Shown one piece after another: positions 631 to 20,133 of a stretch of 49,096 nucleotides of DNA (its first letter is position 1; every line of letters starts with the position of its first letter). The notes below the pieces were generated by a model. That model was not told the origin of the DNA and ran no database searches. It saw nothing but the letters and a program-made list of their open reading frames with translations. The DNA lies in contig QEUP01000034.1 of NCBI GenBank assembly GCA_003577145.1, positions 1 through 49,096 of the forward strand. The letters are read 5' to 3'. The position numbers and the translations under genes were made by a program. Origin of the DNA: Acidobacteriota bacterium (GTDB lineage Bacteria > Actinomycetota > Acidimicrobiia > Acidimicrobiales > Microtrichaceae).

Positions 631-3600
631 TCATTCGGCGACACGGGGGAACTGCTCGACGACACGATCCTGCCAGCCGCTCATCTCCAAGTCGCTGAAA
701 CGCTCGTACGCACATCTGGCCAGTCGGTGGGCAGCCTCCGCGTCTTTGTGCAGGCGGATCCGGGCGAGCGCGTCGTCCACGTCGAGGATCGCTCTCAGCG
801 GGCGTTCACCCGTCTCGTCGAGGTGATGGCGTGCCCTGTCGAACCACTCGGCCGAAGCATCGGCGTCCCGGAGGAGCGTGGCGATGCGGGCCAGCTCGAG
901 GCGCCCATCTGTCATCGGGGCACGGAAGTCGGGCTCGACGACCTTGGTGCGCACGTTCACCTCGAGGAAGTCTGCGTGGTCGGGGCGATCGAGCTGCCAG
1001 AGCGTGTCGACCGCGTGCCAGACCAGGTGCAGGTAGGTGGACGCCCGGGCGTTGGCACCCTCGATGGCGGGGAGCACGAGCGCGAGGGTTTCGAGTGCCC
1101 CGTCGGCCTCTCCTGCCTCCGCCAGGGCCGCGGCGAGCAGAGCCCTCATCGAGGCGAGCGCCCAGGTGTCCTGACCGGATGCGACCAGCGCTTTCAGCCC
1201 TTCGATGGCTGCGCCAGGCAGCGTCCAGCCCATGGCGCGTCGGTAATCGTCTTCGGCACCCGCTAGCTGGAGGGTCGCGTCCGATAGCGGCGGCAGCCGG
1301 GCAGCGCGTTGCCGCGCTCGGTCGCGGGCTTGGCGGGCGGCTTCGAACTCGCCCAGTGCCGCGTGGCAGCGCAGCAGAGCTACGTCCGCTTTCAGCGCTT
1401 CGCGCAGCTGTCCGTGCCTGTCGAAGTCTTCCGCCTCCATTTCGAGCAGGGGCTTGGCCAGCTGGTACGCGCCGGCGAAGAACACCAGGTGCTCGGGTAT
1501 CCCTGAGTCCAGGACCGCCTGGCGGTCGCCGCCCGGAACTCTCGCGATCGGCCAGCGACGCACCTCGGCCTCGGTCCGCCTGTCGAGGAGGCTGGTTATC
1601 TCTGCCAGCTCCCGTGTGTCAGGGTGGATTCCGGGGAAATCCGAGCTCTCCTCGCCGTACATCCACTGCCAGAAGGCGAACAGCGCCCACAGCTTGGAGG
1701 GCGATTCGGTGAGGCGGCCCCCGTTGTCGGCGATCGCCTTCAGCGTCCCTGCGGGCAGCCCACTACGGCGGGCAGCATGGAGGGCATCGGCGAGGAACTC
1801 GGCGCACTCGTCACGGCTGACGGCTTCTTCCATGCTGCGACTGGCTTCGAGCAGCAACTCGGTGGCGTCATCGGCAAGGGCCCATGTCGCAGCCAGCGCG
1901 CGGCGTGCCAACAGGCGGGAGCGTTGCACCTCGTCAGCCGTGAGGTCCATCGCGATGCGGCACATCTCCGCCTCGCTGGCATGCGCGGAGACCTCGGTGG
2001 CTTGGTCAGCCGCGAGGATCGCCAGCCCAACCCCTTCGTCGCTGCTGCCGAGGGAGCGGCTGCTGTGATACAGGTGGGCGGCGCTGGCGGCGAAGCGGCC
2101 TCGCAGGGGCTCCCCGAGTGACGACAGCGACTCGGCCAGCGATCGCTGGAGGCGTATCTGGCGAGACGGGTTGATGGCAGCAGCGGCGCCGCGCCTGACG
2201 ATGGCGTGGGTGAAGTCGTAGCAGTCCGGTTCGCTCGCCGGCTCCAGGATCGTCGTGGCCAACGCCACATCCAAAGCGTCGAGGGCCTCGGCTTCCTCGA
2301 TGCCGACTGCGGAGACGACCGCCGCCAACGGAACCGGGCCCGAGTGGACCGACATCATGTCGACAAGCCTCCTGGCCGGGTCGGGCAGGCGCTCGATGCG
2401 GTGATGGATCACGTCCTTCACCGCGCCGGGAAGGTCCGGAGAGGAGCCGGTGTGGCGCATCTCACCTTCGGTGCGTTCGACGGCCCCGCTCTCCACGAGA
2501 TCCGCCAGCAGCTCCCGCATGAAGAAGGGATTCCCGTGGGCTTGCTCGTACAGGAGGATGGCTGTGTCGTTGGCGAGGGCGCCGCGGATCAAGTGCTCCA
2601 ACAGCTCTCGGCTGTCCGACGCGTTGAGCCCATCGAGGGCGACCCGTGCCGGTTCGGCCTCTCGCTGAAGCCCTCGCAACATCTGCTGCACAGGTTCGGA
2701 GAGGCCGACCTGCTCACTGCGAACGGTGCCGATGAGCAGTGCACGCCGGAGGCTGATGCCGCGCGCGAGGTGGCGAAAGAGGGCGAGCGAGCCGGGGTCG
2801 GCCCAATGGAGGTCCTCCAGGGTCAGTATCAAGGGTTTGTGCCGGCAGGCGCCTTCGACGAAGCGCGCCACTCGGTCCAGGAGCCGGAAGTGGTCCTCGT
2901 CAGGATCGACCGGGGTGCTGGTTTCGTCTGCACTGACGACTCGGGACAACGCGGGTACGAGGCGGGTGATGACAGGCCCTGCCGCCACTGCGGTGGACCG
3001 CAGCGCCGACGGCTCCATGCGGGGAAGGAGCCCGGCGAGGAGATCCGACCAGGGGCGGTAGGCATGCGAGTCGTCCTCGTAACAATGGCCGGTTGATGCC
3101 AGTACCTCGCTGGGAGCATCCCGGGCCAATTCCTCGACGAGCCTGGTCTTGCCGATCCCAGCTTCACCGGAGATCAAGCAGACTGCGCCCCGCCCTTGGA
3201 GGGCCTGCTCGAGGCAGTCATGCAATATCGACAGCTCCTTGTTGCGGTTGACGAGACGTCCCAAGCGTTGCACTCGCGCGGGTCGCTCTGATCCGCTCAG
3301 CGTCACGCAGGCGACCGGATCGGAGAAGCCCTTGAGATCGAGCTCCCCGACACTTTGGAGCACGAAGTCATGCTGGCCGGCGAGGACACCCCGGACGGTT
3401 TCGGTGGCGAGGATCTGACCTGCATCAGCCAGGTCGCAGAGCCGTTTGGCCATCACGACGGTGGACCCGAACAAGGTGCCGTCGTGTCGTATGCGCACAT
3501 CGCCGACGCTGAGACCGATCCGTACCTGCAGCTGGGGGCCGGGTGCCGTGTCGACCTCCTCGCAGATGGCCAGCGCCGCTGACGCCGCGCTGCGGGTGGA

Positions 3601-3801
3601 TGTGAAGACCGCGACGATCCCGTCGCCCAGCCAGTCGATGACCTCTCCCCCCTGAGCAGCTACCCCGTCACAGAGGATCTCGCGATGCTGGAAGATCACG
3701 GCTTCGGAGCGCTCGTCACCGAGCCTGTCGAGCAGGTCGGTCGAGGCGACGATGTCGGTGAACATCACCGTACGGATCTGCATGTCGCCGGGATGGCTCA
3801 T
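631..3801 (-). CDS. Class III cyclase-like domain fused to AAA/STAND-type ATPase and helical repeat region
   Basis: A 1056-residue multidomain signalling protein. Residues about 8-170 form a class III nucleotidyl cyclase homology domain: both metal-binding aspartates are present (D16 in FTDIVAS, D60 in GDGIVAVF). The substrate-contact positions look altered: the usual Lys is D56, the usual Asp is T109 and the transition-state Asn is V116, while Arg (R120) remains. Residues about 180-500 are an AAA_16-like ATPase with Walker A GEAGIGKT (212-219) and Walker B ILTLEDLHWAD. The remaining 500 or so residues are Ala/Leu-rich helices resembling TPR-type repeats. No DNA-binding LuxR tail is seen. A GAGGAAGG ribosome site lies about 9 bases before the ATG at 3801; M7 is an alternative start. 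It is probably a cytoplasmic sensor or scaffold; cyclase activity is doubtful. Confidence 0.9.
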   Translation of the reverse strand: MSHPGDMQIRTVMFTDIVASTDLLDRLGDERSEAVIFQHREILCDGVAAQGGEVIDWLGDGIVAVFTSTRSAASAALAICEEVDTAPGPQLQVRIGLSVGDVRIRHDGTLFGSTVVMAKRLCDLADAGQILATETVRGVLAGQHDFVLQSVGELDLKGFSDPVACVTLSGSERPARVQRLGRLVNRNKELSILHDCLEQALQGRGAVCLISGEAGIGKTRLVEELARDAPSEVLASTGHCYEDDSHAYRPWSDLLAGLLPRMEPSALRSTAVAAGPVITRLVPALSRVVSADETSTPVDPDEDHFRLLDRVARFVEGACRHKPLILTLEDLHWADPGSLALFRHLARGISLRRALLIGTVRSEQVGLSEPVQQMLRGLQREAEPARVALDGLNASDSRELLEHLIRGALANDTAILLYEQAHGNPFFMRELLADLVESGAVERTEGEMRHTGSSPDLPGAVKDVIHHRIERLPDPARRLVDMMSVHSGPVPLAAVVSAVGIEEAEALDALDVALATTILEPASEPDCYDFTHAIVRRGAAAAINPSRQIRLQRSLAESLSSLGEPLRGRFAASAAHLYHSSRSLGSSDEGVGLAILAADQATEVSAHASEAEMCRIAMDLTADEVQRSRLLARRALAATWALADDATELLLEASRSMEEAVSRDECAEFLADALHAARRSGLPAGTLKAIADNGGRLTESPSKLWALFAFWQWMYGEESSDFPGIHPDTRELAEITSLLDRRTEAEVRRWPIARVPGGDRQAVLDSGIPEHLVFFAGAYQLAKPLLEMEAEDFDRHGQLREALKADVALLRCHAALGEFEAARQARDRARQRAARLPPLSDATLQLAGAEDDYRRAMGWTLPGAAIEGLKALVASGQDTWALASMRALLAAALAEAGEADGALETLALVLPAIEGANARASTYLHLVWHAVDTLWQLDRPDHADFLEVNVRTKVVEPDFRAPMTDGRLELARIATLLRDADASAEWFDRARHHLDETGERPLRAILDVDDALARIRLHKDAEAAHRLARCAYERFSDLEMSGWQDRVVEQFPRVAE

Positions 3802-3935: not shown

Positions 3936-4391
3936 ATGAGAGGCGTAGATCCGAAAGTTGCCGGGGGATCCTGCCATCCCGGCGACGCCGTGGTCGGGTT
4001 CATCGCCGACAACTACGACCGGCTCGCCGCAGAGCTGCGGGACGGCCAGACCCCCGATCACTTCGTCAACGAGATCCTCGGCGGTCTCGACACCGACCTC
4101 GCCGCAGCGGCCCGAGGTTTCATCGAGACGCTTCCGGCGCCCACGATCCCGATGATCCACCAGGTCTACAAGTTCTGCGATTCCCGGGACATGCCTCTCG
4201 ACCTCCAGTTCATGGTGGTCGAAGAACCAGCTGAGCAGGTCAGCGAGTGGAGCGAGCGCAACCGCGTGCGCCTGACAGTCGAGTTCGACAGCGTCGGTGC
4301 CCGCTTCTGGGTCTGGCATCCCGAACCCGATCCGTCGCCCGTGCACTCCTGGTACGAGCCGGGCCCGGACCAGCCAAGCGCCCCCGGCTGA
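3936..4391 (+). CDS. Conserved-looking hypothetical protein, 151 aa
   Basis: Family not recognised. The ATG at 3936 is preceded by a strong GGAGGTGA site five bases upstream, which decides the start against a longer frame beginning at 3837. The protein is soluble and acidic with no signal peptide. Residues about 12-70 look helical (GFIADNYDRLAAEL, LAAAARGFIETL). The C-terminal half holds beta-like segments (RVRLTVEFDSVGARFWVWHP) and a Pro-rich end. It is transcribed away from the cyclase/AAA gene, with about 134 bases between the two starts, and converges on hyuA with 18 bases between the stops. No function can be inferred from context. Confidence 0.65.
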   Translation: MRGVDPKVAGGSCHPGDAVVGFIADNYDRLAAELRDGQTPDHFVNEILGGLDTDLAAAARGFIETLPAPTIPMIHQVYKFCDSRDMPLDLQFMVVEEPAEQVSEWSERNRVRLTVEFDSVGARFWVWHPEPDPSPVHSWYEPGPDQPSAPG

Positions 4392-4409
4392 TCGGGCTGC
4401 AACCGTGTG

Positions 4410-6473
4410 TCAGCTCAATTCGAGGACGTAGTTGCCTTGCTCGTCGAGATGCGCGGAGCTGTCCGGTGGCAGCACGACCACGGTGAACGGCTCTTGGATC
4501 AGGGCCGGACCATCGATGCTGAATCCCGTGCCCAACCGGGGCCCGTCATAGACGGGGACTTCGACGGGTTCGAGCCCGAAGTACGCAGAACGGGTGCCGA
4601 TGCGGGCTTGCTCGGGATCGCTCTCGGCTCCCAGGTCGGCGAAGTGCTCGGGTTTGGGCGTGTGGCCTCGGGCTACGATGCGCATGCCGCGCACGATCGG
4701 CTCCTGATCGGGGAAGCAGAAACCGCGCTCGGCCTCGTGCTGGCTGTGGAACCGCTCGGCCGCGTCGCTCAGCTCGGCCTGACCGATCTCGCTCGCCGTG
4801 TCGACGGGGATGCTCATGTCGAAGTTCTGGCCCTGGTAGCACATCTGCAGGAACAGCGAGATGTCGATCTCCTGCTCTGTGAGACCGGTTGGCTCGAACT
4901 CCTTGCGTACCTCACCGAGCAGGTCGGAGCGGACCTCGGCGAGCCTCTGGAGATCGACCTGGGAGAGCGGTACCACATAGGACTGGACCTGATCGATGAC
5001 GTAGTCAGCGACCAGCACGCCGAGCGCGGAGAAGGCGGGGGCGATCTTGGGCAGCAGGACGCGGTGGATGCCGAGCTCTTGGGCGATGGCCCAGGCATGG
5101 ACGGGACCGTTTCCCCCGTAGGCGATCAGTGACAGCTCCCGGGGGTCGGCACCGTGCGAAGCGAGGATGCGGCGAGTGGCGTTGGCCATGTTGGCGTTGA
5201 CGATGCGCTCGATGCCCCATGCCGCCTCGATCACGTCGACGCCGAGTGGATCGGCGACGTCACGCTTGATCGTCTGGCGCGAGGCTTCGACGTCAAGGCT
5301 CATCCGCCCCGAGGCGAAGCCATCGAGGGGCAAGTAGCCGAGGACGGCATCGGCATCGGTGACGGTGGGTTGTGTGCCACCTCGCCCGTAGCAGACCGGG
5401 CCGGGGACGCTGCCGGCGCTTTCGGGGCCGACCAGCAGGGAACCCTCGCTGACGCGGGCGATCGACCCGCCGCCGGCGCCCACGCTCTGTACGTCGACCA
5501 TGGGCAGGCCGATGTAGTAGCGATAGCGCCAGACCCAGTCGGTCTTGATCTCGGGCTTGTTGTCGCGCACCAGGCACACGTCGAAGGAGGTGCCGCCCAT
5601 GTCGATGGCGACGAAGTCCTCGATGCCCGCCCGCCGGGCGGCCTCGGCTGCTCCCATGGCTCCGCCGGTGGGGCCCGACGCCAGCACGTTGACAGCTCGG
5701 CGTGCCACGTAGTCGGGCGGCATGACCCCGCCGGTCGACTGCATGATGAGCAGCGGTCCGCCGTAGCCGGCCGAACGCAGCTGCTCCTGCAGGTGGGTGA
5801 CGTAAGAGGCGATGCCAGGGCCGATGTAGGCGTTGACGAGAGTGGTGGAGACACGCTCGAACTCCGGACCCCGGGGCATGACCTCGTGAGACAGCGTGAT
5901 TTGTTCGACCTCGGGGTATTCCTCCCTGATGATCTCGGCCGCGCGGCGCTCGTGCGCGGGGTTCACGAAGCTGAAGATGAACATCACTGCAATGGAGTTC
6001 ACCCCGAGATCGCGCAGGCGCCGCACACCGCGCCGGACGGCTTCTTCGTCGAGGGGTTTGATCACATCCCCCTCGAAGTTGAGGCGTTCGGGGATCGGGA
6101 TACGGGCTCGTCGGCGGGCGATCGGCTCGGGTGCCGGATAGGCGGGATCCCAGATCTGCTCCTTGAAGCCTCGGCGTAGCTCGATCTTGTCGCGCTGTCC
6201 TTCGGTGACGAGCAGGCCGGTCTCGGCGCCGTTCATCTGGATCATGGTGTTGTCGCCGGCAGTGGTGCCGTGCACGACGATGTCGAGATCCGCACACAGA
6301 TCCTGCAAGGAACGTCCGAACCTGTCCGCCAGCTGGGAAAGGCAGCTCATGACGCCGATCGACTGATCTTCGGGGGTGGTCGGTGCCTTGTCGAGCACCA
6401 CCTCCCCCTCAGGCGTGACACAGATCGTGTCGGTGAACGTTCCTCCAACGTCGATGCCCACACGGAAGCCCAT
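4410..6473 (-). CDS. hyuA: Hydantoinase/oxoprolinase family protein, subunit A
   Basis: The 687-residue protein matches the N-methylhydantoinase A / 5-oxoprolinase / acetone carboxylase beta family, ATP-dependent enzymes that act on cyclic amides or carboxylate ketones together with a B subunit. Visible motifs are the N-terminal phosphate loop GIDVGGTFTD, a second ATPase motif DMGGTSFDVCLVRD, SVGAGGGSIARV, and YGGNGPVHAWA. Length is normal for the family. The ATG overlaps the hyuB stop as TGATG, and a GGAGGGGAG site sits just upstream inside hyuB, so the two are translationally coupled. No biotin or extra domain is present. The substrate is unknown: this family covers hydantoins, 5-oxoproline, caprolactam and ketone carboxylation. 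The two amidohydrolases upstream favour a cyclic-amide or ring-opening pathway, which is inference. Confidence 0.92.
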   Translation of the reverse strand: MGFRVGIDVGGTFTDTICVTPEGEVVLDKAPTTPEDQSIGVMSCLSQLADRFGRSLQDLCADLDIVVHGTTAGDNTMIQMNGAETGLLVTEGQRDKIELRRGFKEQIWDPAYPAPEPIARRRARIPIPERLNFEGDVIKPLDEEAVRRGVRRLRDLGVNSIAVMFIFSFVNPAHERRAAEIIREEYPEVEQITLSHEVMPRGPEFERVSTTLVNAYIGPGIASYVTHLQEQLRSAGYGGPLLIMQSTGGVMPPDYVARRAVNVLASGPTGGAMGAAEAARRAGIEDFVAIDMGGTSFDVCLVRDNKPEIKTDWVWRYRYYIGLPMVDVQSVGAGGGSIARVSEGSLLVGPESAGSVPGPVCYGRGGTQPTVTDADAVLGYLPLDGFASGRMSLDVEASRQTIKRDVADPLGVDVIEAAWGIERIVNANMANATRRILASHGADPRELSLIAYGGNGPVHAWAIAQELGIHRVLLPKIAPAFSALGVLVADYVIDQVQSYVVPLSQVDLQRLAEVRSDLLGEVRKEFEPTGLTEQEIDISLFLQMCYQGQNFDMSIPVDTASEIGQAELSDAAERFHSQHEAERGFCFPDQEPIVRGMRIVARGHTPKPEHFADLGAESDPEQARIGTRSAYFGLEPVEVPVYDGPRLGTGFSIDGPALIQEPFTVVVLPPDSSAHLDEQGNYVLELS

Positions 6474-8278
6474 CAGCTCCCCTCCTTCTTCCGGGCGGAC
6501 CGGAGCTCGGCAGTGCGGTCTTCGTCGACGGCGAGAGTGAGGTCCTCGAGCGAGCCGACCAGGACCACCCCGTAGTCCCGCTCGGCGGCCTCGACGCTCA
6601 CGTACTCGTCGAGGACATCGCCGAGCACCGTGTCGGCGTCGCGATCGAGTGGATCACCCCAACCGCCCCCACCGCCGTAGTCGAAGTTGAACGACTGGCC
6701 GGCATCCATCGGCACCCACTCAGCGGTGTGCTCCACGACGTAGGGATCGTCAGATCCGTAGCGCAGCGTCAGCTTGTTGGGTGCTCCCGGCTTGCCGCCG
6801 GCCACGCCGGGCATCGGGTACTTCATGCCGACCACATAGGTGTAGACCTCGCAGGGAACGAGGGTCTCTTTGACGTAGTGGGCTCCGCACAGGCCACGCC
6901 ACTGCCCCGGCCCACCCGCGTCGGTGCGGTAGTCCGCGCTCCATTGGATGTGGGGGAAGAGGCTCTCGTTCATCTCTGTGGTGGCCTTCCAGAGGTTGCC
7001 GAAGGAGGCGTTCTGGGCCCCCCACCCGTCGGTGCCTTTGGCTGCGTTGCACCACCCGGCGTGCACTTCCGCGGAGTGGTCGGTGAAGCTGTGACCGGTG
7101 CGGGGGTCCTCCCCGACGAGAACCGTCGGGATCCCCGTCTTGTAGACCTGGGGCACGGCCCGGTCGGGAGCAACCTCTTGCAGCGCCAGCGCGATGGCTT
7201 CGCCGACCTCGGTGCCGGGATGGTGGGTGCCGGCGCTGACGGGTTTGCCGAACGGTGGGTTCAGCACACATCCCTCGGGTACGACGATGTCGATGCTCTC
7301 GAAGAAGCCTTCGTTCTTGGGGATCTCCGGGCTGGTCATGCAGGCGATCTGGGCCATGGTGTAAGCGCGGGTGTTCCCGTAGCTCGACCACGCCTGCAAC
7401 TCGTCGCGATCGTCGGTGCCGCTGAAGTCGATCTTCAAGCGGTCCCCCTCGACGGTGACTGCCACATGGATGTGGATGTCGGGGTTGCCCCATGGATCGT
7501 GGTCACCGTAGACGTCGGCTTCGTACACCCCGTCGGGCCAGCCGGCGACCTCGGCGCGGAAGCGCCTACCCGTCGAGTCGATGAAGTAGTCCACCGCGGC
7601 CTCGACGACGTCGGTGCCGAAGCGGGCGAGGATCTCACCGAGGCGTTCGGCACCGAGCTGGGCCGAGCCGATCTGGGCGTGGATGTCGCCCAGGTAGCCG
7701 GGGGAGCGGTTGTTGGCCGCCAGCATCTCGAGCACGTCGGTGCGCTCCTTGCCGGCCTCGACCACTCTCATGGCCGGGACCCGCAGGCCCTCGCCCCACA
7801 CGTCCTTGACGGTGACGTTGTATCCACCCGGGACCGAGCCGCCGGTGTCGCCGTGGTGGCACTGGATGCTGGCCATGAGGACCAGCCGGCCGTCGGAGAA
7901 CACCGGCGCGAAGACGTTGTAGTCGGGCAGGTGGCCGCCTCCGTTGTAGGGGTCGTTGGCCAAGAACACGTCACCGGGTTGGATGCCGTCACCGATGTGG
8001 TCCACCGCGTAGCGCACCGGCAGCGCCGAGGACATCATCAGCTGGGGTATGCCCACCGACACCGCGGCGTAGCGGCCGTTGCGGTCCATGATCGAGGCGT
8101 TGCGCTCGTTGCTCTGGTTGAGGATCGGCGTGGTGGCCGTCCGCGAGACGTATACAGCCATCTCGAAACAGATGGTCTCCATCGTCCCCCGTATCACCTC
8201 GGCTATCACCGGGTCGACCGGGGCACCATCGGTCAACGGGGGACGCGGTTGGGCGAGTGCTTCAAGATCGGCTCGCAT
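6473..8278 (-). CDS. hyuB: Hydantoinase/oxoprolinase family protein, subunit B
   Basis: The 601-residue protein is the B-subunit partner of HyuA. Family hallmarks include DPVIAEVIRGTMETI near the N-terminus, FLANDPYNGGGHLPDYNVF (about residues 105-125), a metal-like motif CHHGDTGGSVPGG, and a C-terminal glycine-rich GGGGGWGDPLDRD. The ATG at 8278 has a GAGGGGAG site nine bases upstream. It lies 72 bases downstream of the amidohydrolase gene and overlaps hyuA by one base, so it is very probably part of one transcript with both. In known enzymes, A and B subunits form a hetero-oligomer in the cytoplasm, with A binding ATP and B contributing the hydrolytic or carboxylation site. Confidence 0.92.
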   Translation of the reverse strand: MRADLEALAQPRPPLTDGAPVDPVIAEVIRGTMETICFEMAVYVSRTATTPILNQSNERNASIMDRNGRYAAVSVGIPQLMMSSALPVRYAVDHIGDGIQPGDVFLANDPYNGGGHLPDYNVFAPVFSDGRLVLMASIQCHHGDTGGSVPGGYNVTVKDVWGEGLRVPAMRVVEAGKERTDVLEMLAANNRSPGYLGDIHAQIGSAQLGAERLGEILARFGTDVVEAAVDYFIDSTGRRFRAEVAGWPDGVYEADVYGDHDPWGNPDIHIHVAVTVEGDRLKIDFSGTDDRDELQAWSSYGNTRAYTMAQIACMTSPEIPKNEGFFESIDIVVPEGCVLNPPFGKPVSAGTHHPGTEVGEAIALALQEVAPDRAVPQVYKTGIPTVLVGEDPRTGHSFTDHSAEVHAGWCNAAKGTDGWGAQNASFGNLWKATTEMNESLFPHIQWSADYRTDAGGPGQWRGLCGAHYVKETLVPCEVYTYVVGMKYPMPGVAGGKPGAPNKLTLRYGSDDPYVVEHTAEWVPMDAGQSFNFDYGGGGGWGDPLDRDADTVLGDVLDEYVSVEAAERDYGVVLVGSLEDLTLAVDEDRTAELRSARKKEGS

Positions 8279-8350
8279 GGTTCTCAGCTCCCCTCTCGTG
8301 TGTGCGGGCAGCGGTGACCCCGCCGCTCGCCTGGTGGGCCCAGGTTTCGC

Positions 8351-9505
8351 TCAGGCCCGGTAGACGACCGTTTCGGGGAAGTCCGCAAGGTTCAGGTCGA
8401 GCCCGAAGATCCGCTCGGCGTTGCTTTGCAGCATCTTCTTCTGCTCCTCGGCAGGAACGCCCGCCAGGGCAGTTGCGATCGTCTTGCGCGAGTGCGGGTA
8501 GGTGGAGGTGGGATGGGGGAAGTCGCACTCCCACATGATGTTGTCGACGCCGATCTCGTGGCGCAGGCCGATGCCGGTGACCTCGAACCAGAAGTTCACG
8601 TAGATCTGGCGGCGGAAGTACTCGCTGGGACGCATCATCATGCCTTCGTCCCACAGGTGCTGCGCTTCGTACTGGTGGTCGGCGGTCTCGAGCATGTAGG
8701 GCACGAAGCCCAGGCCGCTCTCCACCGAGATGAAGTTGAGCTCGGGGAACCGGTCGAGCACCCCGGAGAACATCAGGTTGCCGATGGCTGCCAGATTGCT
8801 GGTGATGGCGCTGACCGAGATCATGCAGAGCTTGCGGAACTTGTCAAAGCCCTTCCACAGGTCCATGTTGACCCCGCCGGAGCCGATGTGGAGGGAGCAG
8901 GGCGTCTTCAGCTCCTGCATGGTGGCCCACAGCGGATTCCAGTAGTCCTCGTTGAAGTGCGGGAAGCCGAAGTTCTGCGGCGCGGCGGTCCACACCACGC
9001 CTTTGTGACCGAGCTCGTGGGCCCGGCGCAGCTCTTCGACTGCCAGGTCGACGTCCCACATGGGCAACAGGCACTGGCCTACGAAGCGCGGGCTCACGTC
9101 GACCCATTCCTCGACCAAGAAGTCGTTGTAGGCACGGATCGAAGCCAGCCGCAGCTCGGGCGAGCCCTTGGTGGATACGTAGGGGCCGCCGCCGAATCCC
9201 GATGCCTGGGGGAAGAGCACCTCCACCGCCACGCCGTCCTCGTCCATGATCTCGAGACGTGCCTTGGCGTCGTAGACCGCCGGGGGTGCCTCGTCCCAGG
9301 TCTTGATGGCGCCGCGGTCAGGCATCATGGCTGCCGCGCCGGTGCCGACCAGGCGTACCTTCTCGCCTGCGTAGACCCAGGTGTCCTCGCCGTCGATGTT
9401 GACGACCTGCGCGCAGTCCTTGTGGAACTTCTTGGGGAGCCGGGAGATGAAGGTGTCGCGCTTCTCCCAGGCGTGGTCGTCGGTGGAGATGGGCAGGATA
9501 TCCAT
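8351..9505 (-). CDS. Amidohydrolase family 2 (ACMSD-like TIM-barrel) protein
   Basis: A 384-residue metal-dependent hydrolase or decarboxylase of the amidohydrolase-2 group (PF04909, COG2159). Motifs are ISTDDH at the N-terminus (the family HxH reduced to DDH, as in many actinobacterial members), LHIGSGG in mid-protein and WECDFPHPTSTYP near the C-terminus carrying the conserved Asp. The start was placed at the ATG at 9505: it has GAGGAG nine bases upstream, it aligns with the N-terminus of the second amidohydrolase in this cluster, and longer starts (9547 ATG, 9562 GTG) would run into the palindromic operator at 9557-9570. It is the first gene of the amidohydrolase-hyuB-hyuA transcript. Relatives decarboxylate or ring-open aromatic intermediates; its own substrate is not known. 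Confidence 0.88.
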   Translation of the reverse strand: MDILPISTDDHAWEKRDTFISRLPKKFHKDCAQVVNIDGEDTWVYAGEKVRLVGTGAAAMMPDRGAIKTWDEAPPAVYDAKARLEIMDEDGVAVEVLFPQASGFGGGPYVSTKGSPELRLASIRAYNDFLVEEWVDVSPRFVGQCLLPMWDVDLAVEELRRAHELGHKGVVWTAAPQNFGFPHFNEDYWNPLWATMQELKTPCSLHIGSGGVNMDLWKGFDKFRKLCMISVSAITSNLAAIGNLMFSGVLDRFPELNFISVESGLGFVPYMLETADHQYEAQHLWDEGMMMRPSEYFRRQIYVNFWFEVTGIGLRHEIGVDNIMWECDFPHPTSTYPHSRKTIATALAGVPAEEQKKMLQSNAERIFGLDLNLADFPETVVYRA

Positions 9506-9556
9506 GTCAGGGAACTCCTCGTCGTGCTGGTCCGGCTGCCAGGCCATGAACCTACC

Positions 9557-9570
9557 TGACACCTATGTCA
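9557..9570. promoter_or_regulatory. Palindromic operator candidate 2 upstream of amidohydrolase-hyuBA
   Basis: TGACA-4-TGTCA is a perfect inverted repeat about 50 bases before the amidohydrolase ATG. The same ACCTGACA block begins the second copy at 9611, giving two imperfect direct copies of a 17-base site with centres 57 bases apart. The TGAC-N6-GTCA geometry fits a dimeric TetR- or GntR-type repressor; which regulator binds is unknown. Confidence 0.5.
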
Positions 9571-9612
9571 TGTCGATCCGGGTCCTTGTTGACGCGGAAT
9601 CCACAGAGAAAC

Positions 9613-9628
9613 CTGACATCAACGTCAG
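9613..9628. promoter_or_regulatory. Palindromic operator candidate 1 at the transcription start
   Basis: CTGAC-6-GTCAG is a perfect inverted repeat immediately downstream of the TACAAT box at 9630-9635. It would cover the predicted transcription start of the leftward amidohydrolase-hyuBA transcript, a classic position for a repressor. Confidence 0.55.
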
Positions 9629-9629
9629 C

Positions 9630-9659
9630 ATTGTATGACGGGGGTCACCACCAAGTCAA
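9630..9659 (-). promoter_or_regulatory. Sigma-70-type promoter for amidohydrolase-hyuB-hyuA
   Basis: Read leftwards, TTGACT (9659-9654), an 18-base spacer and TACAAT (9635-9630) form a near-consensus housekeeping promoter. Transcription should start near 9623, inside operator 1, leaving a leader of about 120 bases before the ATG at 9505. Confidence 0.6.
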
Positions 9660-9798
9660 CGCCCAATCGACCCTGATCATTCGACTTCGCCGGATCAGCC
9701 GGATCAGCCGCTCGGGCGCGCGGGCGAAGCGCGGTGCTCGACGAGGGCTGAGCGAACCCCTCGACACCCCTGTCAGGTCACCCGAAACCCAGCCGGGG

Positions 9799-10242
9799 TC
9801 ACCCGAAACGGGTCGGTATCTTGGCGGCCTCCTCGATGAAGGCCTGGAAGGTGGCGTTGTAGCGGTAGAAGGTGTCGATCCCGAGTTGCTCGTCACCGGT
9901 CAGGTGGAAGCGCTCACCGGCGAGCACGAGGCTGTTCAGGGTGTGGTGGATGTCGGCACGACCGCGTGCCTGGATGTGCTCGATCAGCTCGCGCCAGTCC
10001 TCGGCGGAGGCGCTGACGTGGCAGTCGACGCCTTCTTCGCTGCCGTCCCAGTCGCTCACCCCGGTGCAGCCGAAGCCCTCGAAGGTGAGCCGGTAGGCGG
10101 CGTCACCGACCTGCAAGACCAGCGTGCACTCGACCATGCCGAGTTGGCGGTAGCGTTCGGCGTCGGTGTCCGCCGCGTCGGCGAGGGCCTGGAACCACTT
10201 CGCTGACGGGAACTCGAGTGTCTCGGTCGTGGTGGTTGCCAT
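9799..10242 (-). CDS. Small uncharacterised protein, SCP2-like C-terminal half (tentative)
   Basis: A 147-residue soluble protein. An AGGAG site five bases before the ATG at 10242 fixes the start; the same frame remains open further upstream but only as antisense noise of the diiron gene. The C-terminal half (HHTLNSLVLAGERFHLTGDE, then TFYRYNATFQAFIEEAAKI) is reminiscent of sterol-carrier-protein-2-like lipid-binding folds, in which a domain binds a hydrophobic substrate or acyl-CoA, but this is a weak resemblance. It lies 49 bases downstream of the diiron oxygenase-like gene and is probably co-transcribed, so a role as substrate-binding or accessory partner of that enzyme is plausible. Confidence 0.75.
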   Translation of the reverse strand: MATTTTETLEFPSAKWFQALADAADTDAERYRQLGMVECTLVLQVGDAAYRLTFEGFGCTGVSDWDGSEEGVDCHVSASAEDWRELIEHIQARGRADIHHTLNSLVLAGERFHLTGDEQLGIDTFYRYNATFQAFIEEAAKIPTRFG

Positions 10243-10291
10243 CGTTTCTCCTGTTCTGCGGTCCAGCTGCGTCCGGTCTGCACTCACCCGC

Positions 10292-11467
10292 TCAGAAGGG
10301 CAGGTCGGGCGGGAGCATGCATGCCTCGCGGCGATTGAGGCCGGCCGACTCGGTGCGCAACAGGTACTCCTCGCGCATCTTGCGGTAGGCCATCTTGTAG
10401 ATCTCGAGGCCCTTCTCGATGCCGTCCAACCCGTCGCCGGCGAGAATGGAGCACGACTCCACGGTTGCAGGGTGCATGAAGAACAGGTCCAGGAAGAACA
10501 TCTCCGACGCGGTGGCCAAGTCGTTGAGCCGCTCGAGTTGAGCGTCGGCGTCGGGTGAGTTGTCCAGCAGGTACTTGAGGTGCATGGTGCCGTAGGCCAC
10601 ATGGCGGGCCTCGTCCTGCATGACCATGCGGAAGATCTGCTTGTCGAGGTCGGTCTTGCCGAGGTACTCACCGAAGCGGAACATCGACAGGATCGCCCCT
10701 TCGAACACGACGTGGATGGCGTAGGAGACGTGATCCCAGGTCGAGAACAACGGGTTCTTCCCCGGCTCACCCCCGGGGCCGTCCCCGCTGCTTATCTTCG
10801 TCGCTCCGATCGCCGCCAGCGCGTTGCCCAAGTCGAGGGTCATGCCGAGCCCGCCACCGTTGGCGAAGGTCCTCTTGCGGAACACCTCGGTGTGGCGCGC
10901 CTCGTCCATGAGCTGGGTGGCCAGGAACAGCTTGATCTCGTGGTAGTAGGTGTTGAACGCCGGGATCCACGGCGCGAGGACGTCGTTGACGAGGTACTCG
11001 CCCATGGTGAGGAAGGTGTTGAACTGGCAGGTGGCGCGTTCGAGATCGGGCGGCAGCTCCTCGAGCAGGTGCCAGTCGATGTCTTCGGTGGCGCGCCACT
11101 GGCGGCTGGTCGCCTCCTCGTAGAGGGTCACGAGGTTCTCGCCCCACAACTCGTGCTTGTCGTTGAGGTCCCAATCGCGCGGGCCCAACCCCGGCTCGTT
11201 GCCGGCACCTCGGGGAGTGACGCCTGGCGGCGCGTGGGGGCCGGGGTACAGACCCGACGCCCGGTCGACGTCCATGAGGGTGATGCCCCGCTCGGAGGGC
11301 TCTGCTTTGATGCCCCACTGACCCCAGATCCCACCGCCGGGCTCGGCGTTGAACCAGGTGAGGTCGAAATCGCCCTTGCGCACCGCCTGGGCGTAGGGGC
11401 GCAGAGAGATCTGGTCCGCGTACTCGGTCGGGGACGGCGTCTGCGGTTCGCTGACGGTAGTTGTCAT
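10292..11467 (-). CDS. Ferritin-like diiron protein with two E-X(28-30)-DEXXH motifs
   Basis: A 391-residue protein whose four-helix-bundle core carries a complete carboxylate-bridged diiron site: E157 with D188-E189-A-R-H192 (EX30DEX2H) and E256 with D285-E286-A-R-H289 (EX28DEX2H). This spacing is that of the R2-like/AurF-like oxygenase and oxidase group in the ferritin superfamily. The first 150 residues are an extra N-terminal region rich in Gly/Pro and Trp. The start is the ATG at 11467, with GAGGAG eight bases upstream; a longer frame to 11596 lacks any ribosome site. No membrane segment or ferredoxin domain is visible, so electrons must come from a partner encoded elsewhere. Position between two amidohydrolases suggests an oxidation step in the same catabolic route (inference). 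Confidence 0.88.
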   Translation of the reverse strand: MTTTVSEPQTPSPTEYADQISLRPYAQAVRKGDFDLTWFNAEPGGGIWGQWGIKAEPSERGITLMDVDRASGLYPGPHAPPGVTPRGAGNEPGLGPRDWDLNDKHELWGENLVTLYEEATSRQWRATEDIDWHLLEELPPDLERATCQFNTFLTMGEYLVNDVLAPWIPAFNTYYHEIKLFLATQLMDEARHTEVFRKRTFANGGGLGMTLDLGNALAAIGATKISSGDGPGGEPGKNPLFSTWDHVSYAIHVVFEGAILSMFRFGEYLGKTDLDKQIFRMVMQDEARHVAYGTMHLKYLLDNSPDADAQLERLNDLATASEMFFLDLFFMHPATVESCSILAGDGLDGIEKGLEIYKMAYRKMREEYLLRTESAGLNRREACMLPPDLPF

Positions 11468-11573
11468 TGTCTGGACTCCTCTGGGAGGTCTCACCCGAGC
11501 GCCCGCCGGCCGGCTTGAACGCCGACCTGGCAGGATCTCGAGCTCACGCGAATGGTCGTGTCCGGTTCTGCTG

Positions 11574-12860
11574 TCAACTGCCCTGGCCGTGGACACGCCC
11601 GGCGGCGAGGTCGCTGGCCAAGGTGCCTCGTTCGTCGTACCTCTTCGTGCGGCTGCGGACCGAGGTGTCGACGTCTGCCGCCTCGGCTCGCAGGGCGCCG
11701 ACGGTGCAGCGCTCCTTCGGCCGTTGCTGGAAGGGGTCGTAGCGGTAGTGCTTCATCACGTTGAGGTGGGTGATCTTGGCGGCTTCGTCAGCGGGAACGC
11801 CGTCGAGGGACTTGGCGAGATCCTCTGGCGAGGTGGGCCAGGTGCAGTCCGAGTGCGGGTAGTCGCACTCCCAGGTGATGTTGTCGAGACCCACGGCGTG
11901 GCGGTTGCGGATGCCGACCGGGTCGTCGATGAAGCAGGTGATCACCCGCTCCTTGAACACCTGGCTGGGCAAACGGTCACCGAAGTCCTGGCCGGTCCAG
12001 GTGTGGTGGCGCTGGTAGGTGTAGTCGACGCGTTCGAGGAAGTAGGGGATCCAGCCTATGCCGCCCTCGATCAGCGAGAACTTGAAGGTCGGGAACTTGC
12101 GGAATATCGGCGACCAGACCAGGTCGGCGGCCGCTTGCACGATGTTCATCGGCTGGAGGGTGATCAGCACGTCCATCGGTGCGTCATCGGCGGTGATGAC
12201 CAGCTGGGACGACGAGCCGATGTGGAGGTTGACCACGGTGCCTTCGTCCTCGCAGGCCGACCAGAACGGGTCCCAGTGATCGGAATGGAGGCTGGGGTAG
12301 CCGAGCTTGGCGGGGTTCTCCGAGAAGCTGACCGAGTGACAGCCCTTGGACTCCAGGCGCCGCACCTCGGCAGCCATGAGCTCCGGGTCCCAGATCGGCA
12401 CCAGGCAGTTGGGGATGAAGCGCTCGGGGTAGGCGCCGCACCAGTCCTCGATGTGCCAGTCGTTGTAGGCCTGCAGCAGCGTCAAGCCGAGGTCTTTGTC
12501 CTTGGTCTTGGCGAAGAGCTGGCCGCAGAACTGGGGGAACGAGGGGAAGCAGACCGAGCCCAGCACCCCGTTGGCGCTCATGTCGCGCACCCGCTCGTGG
12601 ATGTCGTAGCAGCCGGACCGCAGCTCGGCCAGCGAGGTCGGCTCGATGCCGTACTCGTTGAGGGGGCGCCCTACGACCGCGTTGAGCCCTACGTTGGGCA
12701 GCTCCTGGCCCTGGTAGAGCCAGACGTCGGTGTCGTTGTCCTTGTGGACCAGCTTCGGTGCCGAGTCCTTGTACTTGTCGGGTAGGCGACCCTCGAACAG
12801 GTTCGGCGGCTCGACCACGTGGTCATCGACGCTGACCAGGATCATGTCCTCGACGTTCAT
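11574..12860 (-). CDS. Amidohydrolase family 2 protein
   Basis: A 428-residue second member of the PF04909 amidohydrolase group and first gene of the leftward run. Motifs are ILVSVDDHVVEPPNLFEGRL at the N-terminus, VNLHIGSSSQ in mid-barrel and WECDYPHSDCTWP with the conserved metal-ligand Asp. It shares overall layout with the gene at 8351-9505 but is clearly diverged, so the two probably take successive or parallel substrates rather than being a recent duplication. Two ATGs lie six bases apart; the second (12860) sits six bases from an AAGGGG site and is preferred over 12866. The C-terminal 40 residues after the barrel are basic and may be disordered. The gene is followed after about 106 bases by the diiron gene. 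Confidence 0.88.
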   Translation of the reverse strand: MNVEDMILVSVDDHVVEPPNLFEGRLPDKYKDSAPKLVHKDNDTDVWLYQGQELPNVGLNAVVGRPLNEYGIEPTSLAELRSGCYDIHERVRDMSANGVLGSVCFPSFPQFCGQLFAKTKDKDLGLTLLQAYNDWHIEDWCGAYPERFIPNCLVPIWDPELMAAEVRRLESKGCHSVSFSENPAKLGYPSLHSDHWDPFWSACEDEGTVVNLHIGSSSQLVITADDAPMDVLITLQPMNIVQAAADLVWSPIFRKFPTFKFSLIEGGIGWIPYFLERVDYTYQRHHTWTGQDFGDRLPSQVFKERVITCFIDDPVGIRNRHAVGLDNITWECDYPHSDCTWPTSPEDLAKSLDGVPADEAAKITHLNVMKHYRYDPFQQRPKERCTVGALRAEAADVDTSVRSRTKRYDERGTLASDLAAGRVHGQGS

Positions 12861-12891
12861 CCTCATCCCCTTCTGTAGCAGGCCTCCGCGG

Positions 12892-12932
12892 GTGGAGAAC
12901 TACATTCTCCACTCCGAGAGGACGGTTTTCAA
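12892..12932 (-). promoter_or_regulatory. Promoter with perfect 21-bp palindromic operator
   Basis: GTGGAGAA-5-TTCTCCAC (12892-12912) is a perfect inverted repeat with 8-base arms. On the leftward strand TTGAAA (12932-12927), 17 bases and GAGAAT (12909-12904) form a plausible promoter whose -10 box lies inside the palindrome. It is placed to control the first gene of the catabolic run, 32 bases upstream of its ATG. The sequence differs from the operators at 9557/9613, which suggests a separate regulator. Confidence 0.55.
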
Positions 12933-13058
12933 GTGAAACGGGGATGGCAGGGAAAACTAGAACGCGTTTCATCTCGAACGCTACCGCCGAAGGAGGTGAT
13001 CAACGCCGACAACCGCCTGTTGCGAGACGGACTTTCCGCACTGCCGGTCTGATCCGAG

Positions 13059-14693
13059 TCAGGCGGGTTCGTGCAGCGCGACGCCCGCGCGCCCGGCGCG
13101 CTTGGCTTCGTACATCGCCGAGTCGGCTTGGCCGATCAGCTCCTCGGGCGACACACCGGTGCGCGCGAGCGCGATGCCGATGCTGACCGTTCCCTTCAGC
13201 ACCAAGCCCTTCAGCTCGACTGGCTCGGACAGCACCGAGACCAGCCGGTGCGCCAGAGCGGCGGCGCTGTTGGCGTTCTCGAGATCCTCGGCGAGGACGA
13301 CGAACTCGTCACCCCCGAAACGGGCGACGGTGTCGCCCGGCCTCACCATGTTGGCCAGCCGACGGGAGACCTGGACCAGGAACTCGTCGCCGACGCGATG
13401 GCCGTGAGTGTCGTTCACCTGCTTGAAGAAGTCCAGGTCACAGAACAGCACGGCCGTCAACGATCGCTTGCGCTCCGCCCGCTGCAGCGCGGTGCGCAGA
13501 CGGTCTTCGAAGAGCTGCCGGTTGGGTAGCCCGCTGAGGGGATCGTGGGTGGCCAGGTAGGCGAGCTCGGCGGTCCTCGTCTGGTCCTCCTGCTCGTCAG
13601 CGGTCGGGGCGGGATACTCGTCGAGCAGGGCGAGGTGGAAGCGTTCGCCGACGAAGTCGTGGAAGGCCGACAGGCTCAGCCGAGCCCCCGCGACGGTCCC
13701 GTCTGCTCGCTGCAGCCGGATGCGGATGCGTTCGTCGAGGCGAGGCTCGGCCATGGCCAGATCGACGTTGGCCTGGTCGTCGGGATGGAGCAGCTCGCGG
13801 AAACGGCGATGCTCGAGCCGCTCGGGGTCCAAGCCCACGAGCGAGCAGAACGCGTCGTTGGCGCGGACGATGTTGGTACGGCTGTCCAGGAGAACAACCC
13901 CAAAGGGGAAGTTGAACAGCTGCTGTTGGGTCTCGTCGAGCAGGTGCATCGTCTCGCGCAGGGCGGTGACGTCGCGGGCGTTGACGATGATGCCCCCGAC
14001 AGTGGGGTCGTCGACCCGGTTCACCAGGTAGAGCTCGAGCAGGCGCGAAGCACCGGAGGCATCGGGGAGCCTCGCCTCGACGCGAACCTCGGTCGCGTCC
14101 AGCAGCACCTCTCCGATCGCATCGACGACCCTCGGCCTGTGCGAGTCGTCCACCCAGTCGGCGAGGGCGGTTCCGACGACGCTGTCGGGTTCACGTCCCA
14201 GCGCCCGGCTGATGGCAGCGCTGGCGTACTGGACCACGCCGTCGCGGTCCACGAGCATGGTGATCTCGTCGGAGCTGTCCACCAGCGCCCGCAGGCGGTT
14301 CGGGCTGGAGGCCACACCGGCGGGGCCGATGGCCGGGGCGACGTCGCGCAGGTACAGCCCCAGCGTGCCGGCCGGTCCCGGGGGGGTCAGCGCGACGACC
14401 GTCAGCGCCATGTGCCGCCAGTCGCCATGGGAGGTGACGACCCGTAGCTCGGTCGGGCCGACCGACTCGTCCCTGCCGGCGCAGGCCTCGAGCACGTCGC
14501 TGAACACCGCTCGATCGTCGGGATGGATGAGGTCCTCGGCGGCGCGCCCCACCAGCAGATCGGGGCGGTAGCCGAGCAGGCGCTGAACGGTGAGGTTGGC
14601 CGAGGCGATCAGGCCGCGCCCATCGGCCACCATGACCACTTCGGGTGAGTTGTCGATCAGGGCGCCCGCATCAGGGGCGTCACCCATGCCCAT
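13059..14693 (-). CDS. PAS-PAS-PAS-GGDEF diguanylate cyclase
   Basis: A 544-residue cytoplasmic signalling enzyme predicted to make cyclic di-GMP from two GTP. Three PAS-type segments are visible (starting near residues 12, 137 and 250; for example DNSPEVVMVADGRG, VDSSDEITMLVDRDG, FNFPFGVVLLDSRT). The C-terminal GGDEF domain (about residues 380-544) includes DPLSGLPNRQLFEDRL, DLDFFKQVND and an intact RFGGDEF. An RPGD product-inhibition site (RxxD) lies five residues before GGDEF, so feedback inhibition is likely. No transmembrane segment and no EAL domain. The ATG at 14693 has AAGGGG six bases upstream, and the longer TTG start at 14720 is less likely. It stands alone between an amidohydrolase and a TetR gene. 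Confidence 0.93.
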   Translation of the reverse strand: MGMGDAPDAGALIDNSPEVVMVADGRGLIASANLTVQRLLGYRPDLLVGRAAEDLIHPDDRAVFSDVLEACAGRDESVGPTELRVVTSHGDWRHMALTVVALTPPGPAGTLGLYLRDVAPAIGPAGVASSPNRLRALVDSSDEITMLVDRDGVVQYASAAISRALGREPDSVVGTALADWVDDSHRPRVVDAIGEVLLDATEVRVEARLPDASGASRLLELYLVNRVDDPTVGGIIVNARDVTALRETMHLLDETQQQLFNFPFGVVLLDSRTNIVRANDAFCSLVGLDPERLEHRRFRELLHPDDQANVDLAMAEPRLDERIRIRLQRADGTVAGARLSLSAFHDFVGERFHLALLDEYPAPTADEQEDQTRTAELAYLATHDPLSGLPNRQLFEDRLRTALQRAERKRSLTAVLFCDLDFFKQVNDTHGHRVGDEFLVQVSRRLANMVRPGDTVARFGGDEFVVLAEDLENANSAAALAHRLVSVLSEPVELKGLVLKGTVSIGIALARTGVSPEELIGQADSAMYEAKRAGRAGVALHEPA

Positions 14694-14878
14694 TGCGTTC
14701 CCCTTGTGGGAGTAAGTCAAAGACCCTCGTCGGGGTCCCTCACCCGCCCCGGTGACCGAGGATATACCACGGAGAGTGACAGTAGGGGGCGGTTGAAGGT
14801 GAAGATTAGAGGTCCGGGGATGCGACGAAGCATCGGGAGGTCCGGACTTGTGTCACATGGTCCGGAGCGTTCGAGCCC

Positions 14879-15466
14879 TCAGTGCCCGGTGGGGCGGATG
14901 CCGCGCAGTCCCGCCCATGCCAACTCGCTCACACGAGCCGCCAGGGTGCGGGGATCGAGGTCGAGATGCTCGAGCATGACCTGCCGGCTCGATCCCTCGG
15001 CCATGCCCACGATGGCGTAGGCCAGGAACCGCCGGTGCTCCTCGGTGATGCCCTCGATCATTATCCGGCTGGCGATGCCCTCGGCTATCGACTCCTCGAC
15101 GGCGCGCACTTCCGCGGCGAACTCGGCATCGCGACGTGTTCCGGCGCCGAAGAGCACGGTGTAGGAGGCGTGCTGCTTGGCGAGGAACTCGAAGTAGGCC
15201 TCGAACCCGCGTTCGAGCTCCTCACGGCCTCCTTCGGCGCTGCCCCACGCTTCGGCGATGCTTTGGCGCAACTGCTCGCCGATCTCGTGCAGCAGCTGGC
15301 GGAAGAGCTCCCGCTTGGATGGGAAGTGCTGGTAGAGCACGGGTTTGGTGACGCCCGCGGCGGCGGCCACGTCGTTCATGGACGTGTCGTGGAACCCCTT
15401 CTCGGCAAAGACCTCGAGGGCGGTGGCCAGGAGTTGCTGGCGTCTCTCGGCGGCAGGCAGGCGCAT
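14879..15466 (-). CDS. TetR-family transcriptional regulator
   Basis: A 195-residue repressor. The N-terminal helix-turn-helix (about residues 5-52) is typical: RRQQLLATALEVFAEKGFHD, then DVAAAAGVTKPVLYQHFPSK. The rest is the variable helical ligand-binding and dimerisation domain. The ATG at 15466 is preferred because a longer TTG-started frame would extend through the palindrome at 15488-15503. There is no strong ribosome site. That palindrome lies 21 bases upstream of the start and suggests autoregulation. It could also act on the catabolic run to the left, but the operators there differ in sequence. Confidence 0.9.
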   Translation of the reverse strand: MRLPAAERRQQLLATALEVFAEKGFHDTSMNDVAAAAGVTKPVLYQHFPSKRELFRQLLHEIGEQLRQSIAEAWGSAEGGREELERGFEAYFEFLAKQHASYTVLFGAGTRRDAEFAAEVRAVEESIAEGIASRIMIEGITEEHRRFLAYAIVGMAEGSSRQVMLEHLDLDPRTLAARVSELAWAGLRGIRPTGH

Positions 15467-15487
15467 GGGTTGAACTACGGTCGAAGA

Positions 15488-15503
15488 GTTACCGAACAGT
15501 AAC
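15488..15503. promoter_or_regulatory. Palindrome upstream of tetR, likely autoregulatory operator
   Basis: GTTAC-6-GTAAC is a perfect inverted repeat 21 bases before the TetR gene start. TetR proteins commonly bind such sites in their own promoter; the N6 spacing fits a dimer. Confidence 0.5.
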
Positions 15504-15570
15504 AACGGACCCGGCCCGGAACTAAACTGACTGCCGCATTGGCGTTTCTTCGCTCACGCCCACCAACGCC

Positions 15571-20105: not shown

Positions 20106-20133
20106 TCTCCGCCTGGGATCGAAAGGGCTGAGC

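Follow-up and report, generated by a model that had tools for sequence, protein, structure and literature searches.

A candidate aerobic catabolic module combining predicted oxygenases with a HyuAB-type enzyme in an Acidimicrobiia contig

Part of the amidohydrolase family PF04909 consists of oxygenases, and this group is called amidohydrolase-related dinuclear oxygenases in PMC10811679. PtmU3 is presented as a TIM-barrel diiron hydroxylase (PMC7782822; PMC10401708). For AibH2, a subunit of the AibH1H2 heterotetramer of Rhodococcus wratislaviensis, the metal ligands are given as D, H, H, E, D, H, and an acidic residue two positions past the last histidine is described as a feature which, within the superfamily, only binuclear enzymes conserve and which mono-zinc AibH1 lacks (PMC7782822). 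In the caprolactamase CapAB the reported ligands of CapB are Asp41, His99, Asp102 and His124, with Tyr136 as the proposed acid/base (PMC8453981). Relatives of both kinds of enzyme are encoded side by side in a stretch of 49,096 bases from an Acidimicrobiia genome (contig QEUP01000034.1, hereafter the window), in which six consecutive open reading frames (ORFs) were verified on the minus strand from 12866 to 4410. In order of transcription these are amhA, a gene for a diiron protein, a gene for a small SCP2-fold protein, amhB, hyuB and hyuA.

Pfam assigned Hydantoinase_A, Hydantoinase_B and two Amidohydro_2 domains to the six proteins, a sub-threshold Ribonuc_red_sm match to the diiron protein and no family to the SCP protein. 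An oxidation step together with an ATP-dependent HyuAB step, as proposed in a preliminary description made from the letters alone, is the natural reading of these families and their motifs. The best explanation seems to be an aerobic catabolic module in which one ATP-dependent enzyme works alongside two dinuclear metalloenzymes that activate O2, and we assign a probability of about 0.48 to it. It would degrade a hydrophobic cyclic compound, perhaps as coenzyme A (CoA) thioesters, because the genes co-occur in a conserved manner, two separate O2-activating sites are predicted and a putative ATP-dependent ring-opening enzyme accompanies them. The combination had not been recognised as a described pathway before, and none was found in the open-licence literature. 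Likewise, nothing relevant on SCP2 proteins with diiron proteins, or on Acidimicrobiia with a hydantoinase and an amidohydrolase, was found among the open-licence papers listed, a set in which most subscription journals are missing.

The gene amhA (11574-12866, minus strand) and amhB both match PF04909. Among solved structures, AmhA is closest to DitZ (8UYR; E=4.2e-111, 375 bits) and PtmU3 (6OMP; E=1.5e-37, 132.5 bits), and further structures follow at 7.6e-14 and weaker, the best of them with 54.4 bits, at least 78 bits lower. The next four matches, 8SM6-8SM9, are themselves candidate dinuclear oxygenases according to PMC10811679 or its follow-up entries. In the alignment all six AibH2 ligands (D-H-H-E-D-H) and the marker Asp (DYPHSD) are present, and AmhA and its 11 nearest relatives read D-H-H-E-D-H-D. 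Because every dinuclear ligand and the marker acid are present and DitZ and PtmU3 are the best matches, AmhA is more likely an oxygenase than a hydrolase, predicted to hold an Fe/Fe or Mn/Fe centre. With PtmU3, DitZ, AibH2 and SfbO it shares the family, the six ligands and the acidic residue, but its setting differs: HyuAB and a diiron-SCP2 unit are encoded with it, and no small Rieske protein, which is described as typical of AibH2-like genes (PMC10401708). No paper on DitZ was found among the open-licence papers listed, and the name is used here only as that of a PDB entry.

The second PF04909 gene, amhB (8351-9505, minus strand; alternative starts at 9547 and 9562), belongs to a module-specific clade. 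Its product also matches DitZ (E 8.5e-48, 166 bits) and PtmU3 (E 5.7e-44, 154 bits) best, with other structures at 6.7e-21 and weaker. The AmhB orthologues read D-H-H-E-D-H-T (DFPHPT in the window), as found in the window gene and in eight distinct genes besides it (L034, L035, L036, L037, L038, L039, L122 and L128); the genes of L039 and L127 are one and the same, and the L034 ORF as called lacks the first two ligand positions. At locus L032 an Ile stands at the marker position, and a remote PF04909 protein at L087 lacks several ligands. AmhB does not carry the acidic dinuclear marker and is therefore not filed as a dinuclear oxygenase, so that the idea of two dinuclear PF04909 oxygenases was dropped.

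AmhX, the other PF04909 protein of L034-L038, reads D-H-H-E-D-H-D in 5/5 cases, as does the protein of L126, and each of these five loci holds one Asp-marker and one Thr-marker protein. In genome G431 the marker-bearing gene is located on another contig. Because Asp-marker and Thr-marker proteins occur paired, the module usually seems to couple a marker-bearing with a marker-lacking PF04909 protein in the AibH2/AibH1 pattern, in which AmhB, with its D, H, H, E, D, H, its missing marker acid and its marker-bearing paralogue, would fit an AibH1-type mononuclear subunit. A physical pairing of AmhA and AmhB is conceivable on this basis. The likeness to AibH1H2 lies in two PF04909 proteins per cluster, of which just one has the marker acid (as described in PMC7782822). 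The module of the window, however, encodes no equivalent of the Rieske ferredoxin AibG or of the reductase AibF, the neighbouring genes differ, and the pairing in the module is one that we infer.

In the preliminary description both PF04909 proteins were taken for ring-opening or decarboxylating hydrolases. Extended to the whole locus, this would mean true hydrolases or decarboxylases, one oxidation by the diiron protein and a HyuAB that opens a lactam, a hydantoin or an imide derived from an N-heterocycle, and AmhB especially might act as a hydrolase or decarboxylase with a single metal. The Thr at the dinuclear marker in each aligned AmhB orthologue would agree with this, as would the caprolactamase and N-methylhydantoinase that are nearest to HyuAB. 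AmhB also matches structures of gamma-resorcylate and 2-amino-3-carboxymuconate-6-semialdehyde (ACMS) decarboxylases at 44-58 bits, far below its scores with DitZ and PtmU3. Against it stand the oxygenase ligands retained in AmhA and the gap in score between DitZ or PtmU3 and the next structure, itself a candidate dinuclear oxygenase, so that for AmhA the hydrolase assignment was not supported. Moreover, AibH1 is reported as a mononuclear member that serves as an oxygenase subunit and is thought to be non-catalytic (PMC7782822). This route as a whole appears unlikely.

The diiron protein (10292-11467, minus strand) was read from the ATG at 11467; a longer mechanical ORF begins at 11596, within amhA. 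A profile search relates it to R2-like ligand-binding oxidases (R2lox) and to the VlmB/6D9F/8WVR sequence (E 4.3e-6), and with 40.7 bits vs 194 it misses the NCBIfam equivalog cut-off of the former. The residues E157, E189, H192, E256, E286 and H289, which we take from the spacing in R2 proteins to be the metal ligands, are invariant in 9 aligned sequences. A structure model built from 7 sequences has a mean predicted local distance difference test (pLDDT) of 66 and a predicted template modelling score (pTM) of 0.70. It gives Z 18.2 to VlmB and 6D9F at 17-18% identity, about 15-17 to aldehyde-deformylating oxygenases, near 16 to soluble methane monooxygenase (sMMO) and near 15 to R2lox; helical bundles often give high Z, and the threshold of about 13 is exceeded by these matches. 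With its predicted helical fold and Glu/ExxH ligand pairs, the protein can be assigned to the ferritin-like diiron oxygenase superfamily. The close sequence relation expected of a VlmB azoxy synthase was not found at this identity and profile E value.

VlmB/6D9F, R2lox and the sMMO hydroxylase share the ferritin-type fold and the ExxH repeats with the diiron protein. It differs in its low identity to VlmB and 6D9F, in the unreached R2lox cut-offs and in its partners, since it is encoded with an SCP2-fold protein and, at many of the loci, with a 2[4Fe-4S] ferredoxin. Operons of bacterial multicomponent monooxygenases of the sMMO type encode a second hydroxylase subunit and a flavin-iron-sulphur reductase, and both are absent among the six genes and their neighbours. 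A tblastn search of a plasmid collection with the diiron protein gave no match. Remote homologues in other classes (L113, 7046-8344; L114, 7783-8994; L115, 6964-8211; L116, 7487-8731) carry an extra N-terminal domain, by eye like the sulphur carrier TusA, and adjoin genes resembling those for acyl-CoA dehydrogenases and binding proteins. Apparent frameshifts interrupt both the diiron gene and hyuA at L039 (10001-13760), possibly through an assembly error.

For the SCP2-fold protein (9799-10242, minus strand) no Pfam match was obtained in the window, PF02036 included, and 2/11 members of its family gave weak ones (best E 0.0014). Its model (pLDDT 84.8) shows an SCP2 fold, with Z 12.8 and a root-mean-square deviation of 2.4 over 119 aligned residues to 2CX7, and UbiJ-SCP2 is the top Foldseek match (E 5.6e-5). 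The label "SCP2-like" given earlier is thus supported by the predicted fold, and the suspicion that it was a mere guess could be set aside. UbiJ-SCP2 has the same fold, but the identity over the aligned part is 16-20% and the pathway is a different one. UbiJ holds hydrophobic ubiquinone intermediates for hydroxylases, which offers an analogy for an SCP2 protein that assists oxygenases.

The SCP gene, the conserved partner of the diiron gene, accompanies it in 19/20 loci of the diiron family, the exception (L020) stopping at a contig end, and its product may be a substrate carrier or effector. A 4Fe-4S ferredoxin gene is found in 13 of the 20, with Pfam Fer4 families for three examples. Counted were the window, L018-L030, L032, L033, L034, L037, L039 and L117; the weak hit L031, the loci L113-L116 (four opened of seven distant diiron places) and L035, L036 and L038 as duplicates of L018, L019 and L020 were excluded. 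The ferredoxin and SCP probes came partly from counted loci (L019, L021, L026, L030, L032), whose SCP genes were also found with the window protein. Neither gene was seen in the comparison loci chosen for HyuB or AmhA (L076-L095; 0/20) or in the five remote diiron loci (L031, L113-L116). The SCP gene mostly follows the diiron gene directly, with module genes in between at L018, L019, L034 and L037. In the window genome one ferredoxin gene lies beside a diiron-SCP paralogue on contig 45, and a second one, on contig 13, has no gene of this diiron family as its neighbour.

Every enzyme of the module comes from a known family, and the unit of diiron protein, SCP2-fold protein and ferredoxin may go beyond the known kinds. 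We tentatively suggest that the unit is a multicomponent diiron oxygenase of a new class, with an SCP2 carrier in place of the MmoB-type effector, and that it would here be chained to a PF04909 pair, as an unrelated dinuclear oxygenase, and to an ATP-dependent ring-opening enzyme in a new degradation route. The diiron-SCP2 unit without HyuAB is widespread, mostly with ferredoxin (L021-L030, L117), and at L023, L027 and L029 the SCP gene is separated from the ferredoxin gene by one for a small protein of 65-83 residues that contains Cys.

HyuA (4410-6473, minus strand) and HyuB (6473-8278, minus strand) cover their respective Pfam domains nearly at full length. The motifs DVGGTFTD, DMGGT and GSVPGP are intact in HyuA, as in all complete HyuA rows; L123, a shortened ORF call, misses the N-terminal one, and two pieces of the split gene L039/L127 miss all three. 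The CapB residues Asp41, His99, Asp102, His124 and Tyr136 align with E58, H116, D119, H141 and Y153 of HyuB, and this E-H-D-H-Y pattern occurs in 16/21 HyuB rows, with L122 cut and misaligned and three rows lacking the region. HyuAB thus shares with CapAB and N-methylhydantoinase the full-length subunits, the ATP motifs and the metal ligands, as well as the Tyr of CapB, and it has the ATP and metal sites of an ATP-dependent lactamase or hydantoinase, which it is predicted to be. It differs from CapAB in the Glu that replaces Asp41 and in scores of 609.6 and 262 bits against equivalog cut-offs of 1000 each in NCBIfam, and the name caprolactamase was rejected for it. A cyclic N-compound as substrate, as proposed earlier, is no more than possible with a caprolactamase or hydantoinase as nearest relative.

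HyuAB could also be an ATP-dependent ketone or enol carboxylase like acetone or acetophenone carboxylase, in a module that oxidises a terpenoid- or steroid-like ring and then carboxylates its ketone. HyuA does match acetophenone carboxylase gamma with 382 bits, but HyuB scores 227 bits with CapB and 209 with N-methylhydantoinase vs 115 and 36 with carboxylases. The Tyr kept from CapB, which is Met in acetophenone carboxylase delta, weakly favours ring hydrolysis; it is a weak sign because N-methylhydantoinase has Leu there, and the overall HyuB scores argue more for the lactamase side. A hydrophobic substrate of this kind would suit the SCP2 fold, and a KshA-like oxygenase is encoded at L032. 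In several of nine loci, foremost L087-L090, amhA relatives lie near genes for P450, ferredoxin, CoA ligase, thiolase or aldehyde dehydrogenase (names by eye), and other amhA loci, such as the window genome's own copy on contig 9 (L093), lack such neighbours. CoA ligases and acyl-CoA dehydrogenases are frequent at the HyuA/HyuB loci of relatives as well. On balance, a carboxylase seems improbable.

Across 23 HyuA/HyuB loci, of which L039 and L127 overlap, probes hit genes for CoA ligase at 11, for acyl-CoA dehydrogenase at 9, for enoyl-CoA hydratase at 7 and for a haem-oxygenase-like diiron protein at 5. One or more of the CoA-pathway probes matched in 15/23 of them vs 3/10 control loci of diiron paralogues, and the HyuA/HyuB neighbours point modestly toward CoA thioesters. 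In the window, genes for enoyl-CoA hydratases, a carboxyltransferase and a 72-residue biotin carrier form another CoA-linked group on the plus strand at 19.3-24.5 kb (19323-24545). The haem-oxygenase-like diiron protein (PF14518/CADD-related) is encoded at L077 (6312-7079), L080 (9666-10448), L081 (near 2400), L082 (6379-7077) and L122 (8613-9350), two of these five loci having supplied probes. Because of its presence in 5/23 loci, HyuAB of this clade may work with varied O2-activating partners.

In a sample of 148 genomes of the order, a diiron orthologue (65-100% identity; next best 46%) was found in G000, the window genome, G033, G043 and G083 with E up to 1e-60, and an AmhB orthologue (64-100%; next 42% among the matches listed) in the same four with E up to 1e-50, limits at which short fragments are missed. 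These genomes represent 3 genera and 3 families. Two random sets of four among 148 would coincide with a chance of about 5e-8, or about 4e-6 by genus (3 of 115), uncorrected for relatedness. HyuB at 57% identity or above occurs in 12/148 genomes, including these four. A scan of named genomes with two short peptide patterns yielded 8 loci (three from Acidimicrobiia, four from Actinomycetes, one from a Deltaproteobacteria record), three of which duplicate G033, G043 and G083, and thus five further genomes. All nine genomes with a diiron orthologue have an AmhB orthologue (57-82% besides the window) and a match to HyuA (46-81%), and one of them is the Deltaproteobacteria/Myxococcota record (L032). 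Because the set recurs in further families, and once in a record from a different phylum, it is beyond chance.

The gene hyuB lies at the diiron locus in 8/9 genomes, being cut by a contig end in two, and hyuA in the window, G043, L034 and L039. In G431, the contigs L032 (6730-7937) and L126 (2-718) end within complementary parts of hyuB and may adjoin; they were treated as unjoined. The arrangement is colinear at L035, divergent at L034 and convergent at L039, and because the arrangements differ, inheritance of one fixed block is insufficient alone to explain the association. The neighbourhood comparison proposed in the preliminary description was positive, and the association of the families recurs as expected there, but not as a single fixed six-gene block. 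It is highly improbable that amhA-diiron-SCP is an oxygenase of its own and amhB-hyuB-hyuA part of another pathway, as neighbours by chance or in a loose metabolic relation: this would suit G430, where hyuA-amhA-amhB-hyuB is located about 0.8 Mb from diiron-scp (L033), the many diiron-SCP paralogues without nearby hyu or amh genes and the 8/12 genomes of the order with HyuB (E up to 1e-100) but no diiron orthologue (G102 has a 40% paralogue), yet the diiron orthologue is accompanied by that of AmhB, both in the order sample and in 9/9 genomes, even when unlinked, and the genes are interleaved at L018, L019, L034 and L037.

The idea that amhA itself is confined to the module was rejected, since amhA-like genes are widespread in the order (71/148 genomes with E up to 1e-50, 43/148 with 1e-160). 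In a tree, the window AmhA forms a clade with those of G428 (82%) and G430 (77%) with a support of 100/100, separate from the AmhA proteins of the window's own family that were included. In G430 amhA sits between hyuA and amhB, and in G428 about 5 kb separate it from amhB. AmhX takes its place at the module in G033, G043, G083, G427 and G429. No amhX orthologue is evident in G000, because the AmhB query (E up to 1e-50) returned only AmhB itself, AmhA and the copy on contig 9.

In the aerobic module favoured here, the R2/VlmB-like diiron protein would oxidise, e.g., hydroxylate, a hydrophobic cyclic substrate carried by the SCP2-fold protein, with electrons from a 2[4Fe-4S] ferredoxin that is encoded at the same locus in many relatives and unlinked in the window genome. 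AmhA, as a PtmU3/DitZ-type dinuclear oxygenase, would add a second oxygen, possibly partnered by the mononuclear-type AmhB as AibH2 is by AibH1. The oxidised cyclic carbonyl or lactam would then be activated with ATP at the HyuA site and opened at the HyuB metal site, and the product would enter a CoA-thioester degradation resembling beta-oxidation.

Several observations weigh against this reading. The mean pLDDT of the diiron model is 66. No ferredoxin, Rieske or reductase gene was seen in the window module, nor a small Rieske protein beside amhA among the module genes and their neighbours; the latter is reported to adjoin 90% of AibH2-like genes, as a usual and not a required companion (PMC10401708), and the sole module locus with a Rieske gene is L032, where it is KshA-like. 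PtmU3 is described as acting without an AibH1-like partner (PMC10401708), so that AmhA need not pair with AmhB, and since amhA-like genes are common outside the module, the placement of amhA in the window could be independent. At the Tyr position of HyuB, L032 has Phe, and the Leu of N-methylhydantoinase belongs to a ring hydrolase. The excess of CoA genes is modest, with probes taken from the loci themselves (L034, L079, L080, L084, L122) and 10/18 loci matching without these five, and the CoA-enzyme probes found no match in the first 20 kb of the window. In 5/9 genomes (G033, G083, G427, G430, G431) hyuA is not at the diiron locus but on a different contig or at another chromosomal site, L033 holds only the diiron and SCP genes, and L020 stops at the contig end. 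Finally, the records are mostly metagenome-assembled, and a binning error could account for the Myxococcota case.

If the module works as proposed, it would add an oxygenase system that has a partner of the SCP2 type, and would give a physiological setting for PF04909 oxygenases, whose natural substrates are mostly unknown. Labels such as "amidohydrolase" in such clusters can mask oxygenases, and the chemistry of pathways derived from annotation may thus be wrong. It is a small, recurrent module, amenable to tests in a laboratory host.

The intergenic gaps, in order of transcription, are 106, 49, 293, 72 and -1 bases, and the stop codon of hyuB and the start of hyuA share one base (TGATG). Since the only large gap, 293 bases, lies between the SCP gene and amhB, two transcripts are likely, as in the preliminary description, of which the six consecutive genes and the coupled hyuB-hyuA were confirmed. 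Three sigma-70-like matches were found in 4000-13200 (mean of 0.9 in shuffled sequences), two of which directly precede the proposed transcripts, at 12904-12932 before amhA and at 9630-9659 before amhB-hyuB-hyuA (both minus strand). They are weak, consensus-only matches, compatible with two operons and no proof of them; scans for promoters, terminators and repeats contributed little.

Upstream of the module, a PAS-GGDEF protein and a TetR regulator are encoded at 13059-15505, and downstream a cyclase-domain AAA protein at 631-3801. These flanking genes do not recur beside the module above 45 bits in the module loci, except for a weak TetR match in L034. Farther along the window, a cluster resembling cytochrome c maturation genes (ABC exporter, CcmC/E/F/G/H-like), judged by eye, lies at 33739-40831. 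The G+C content falls to 0.61 at 30001-32000 and is 0.64-0.70 in the remaining 2-kb steps.

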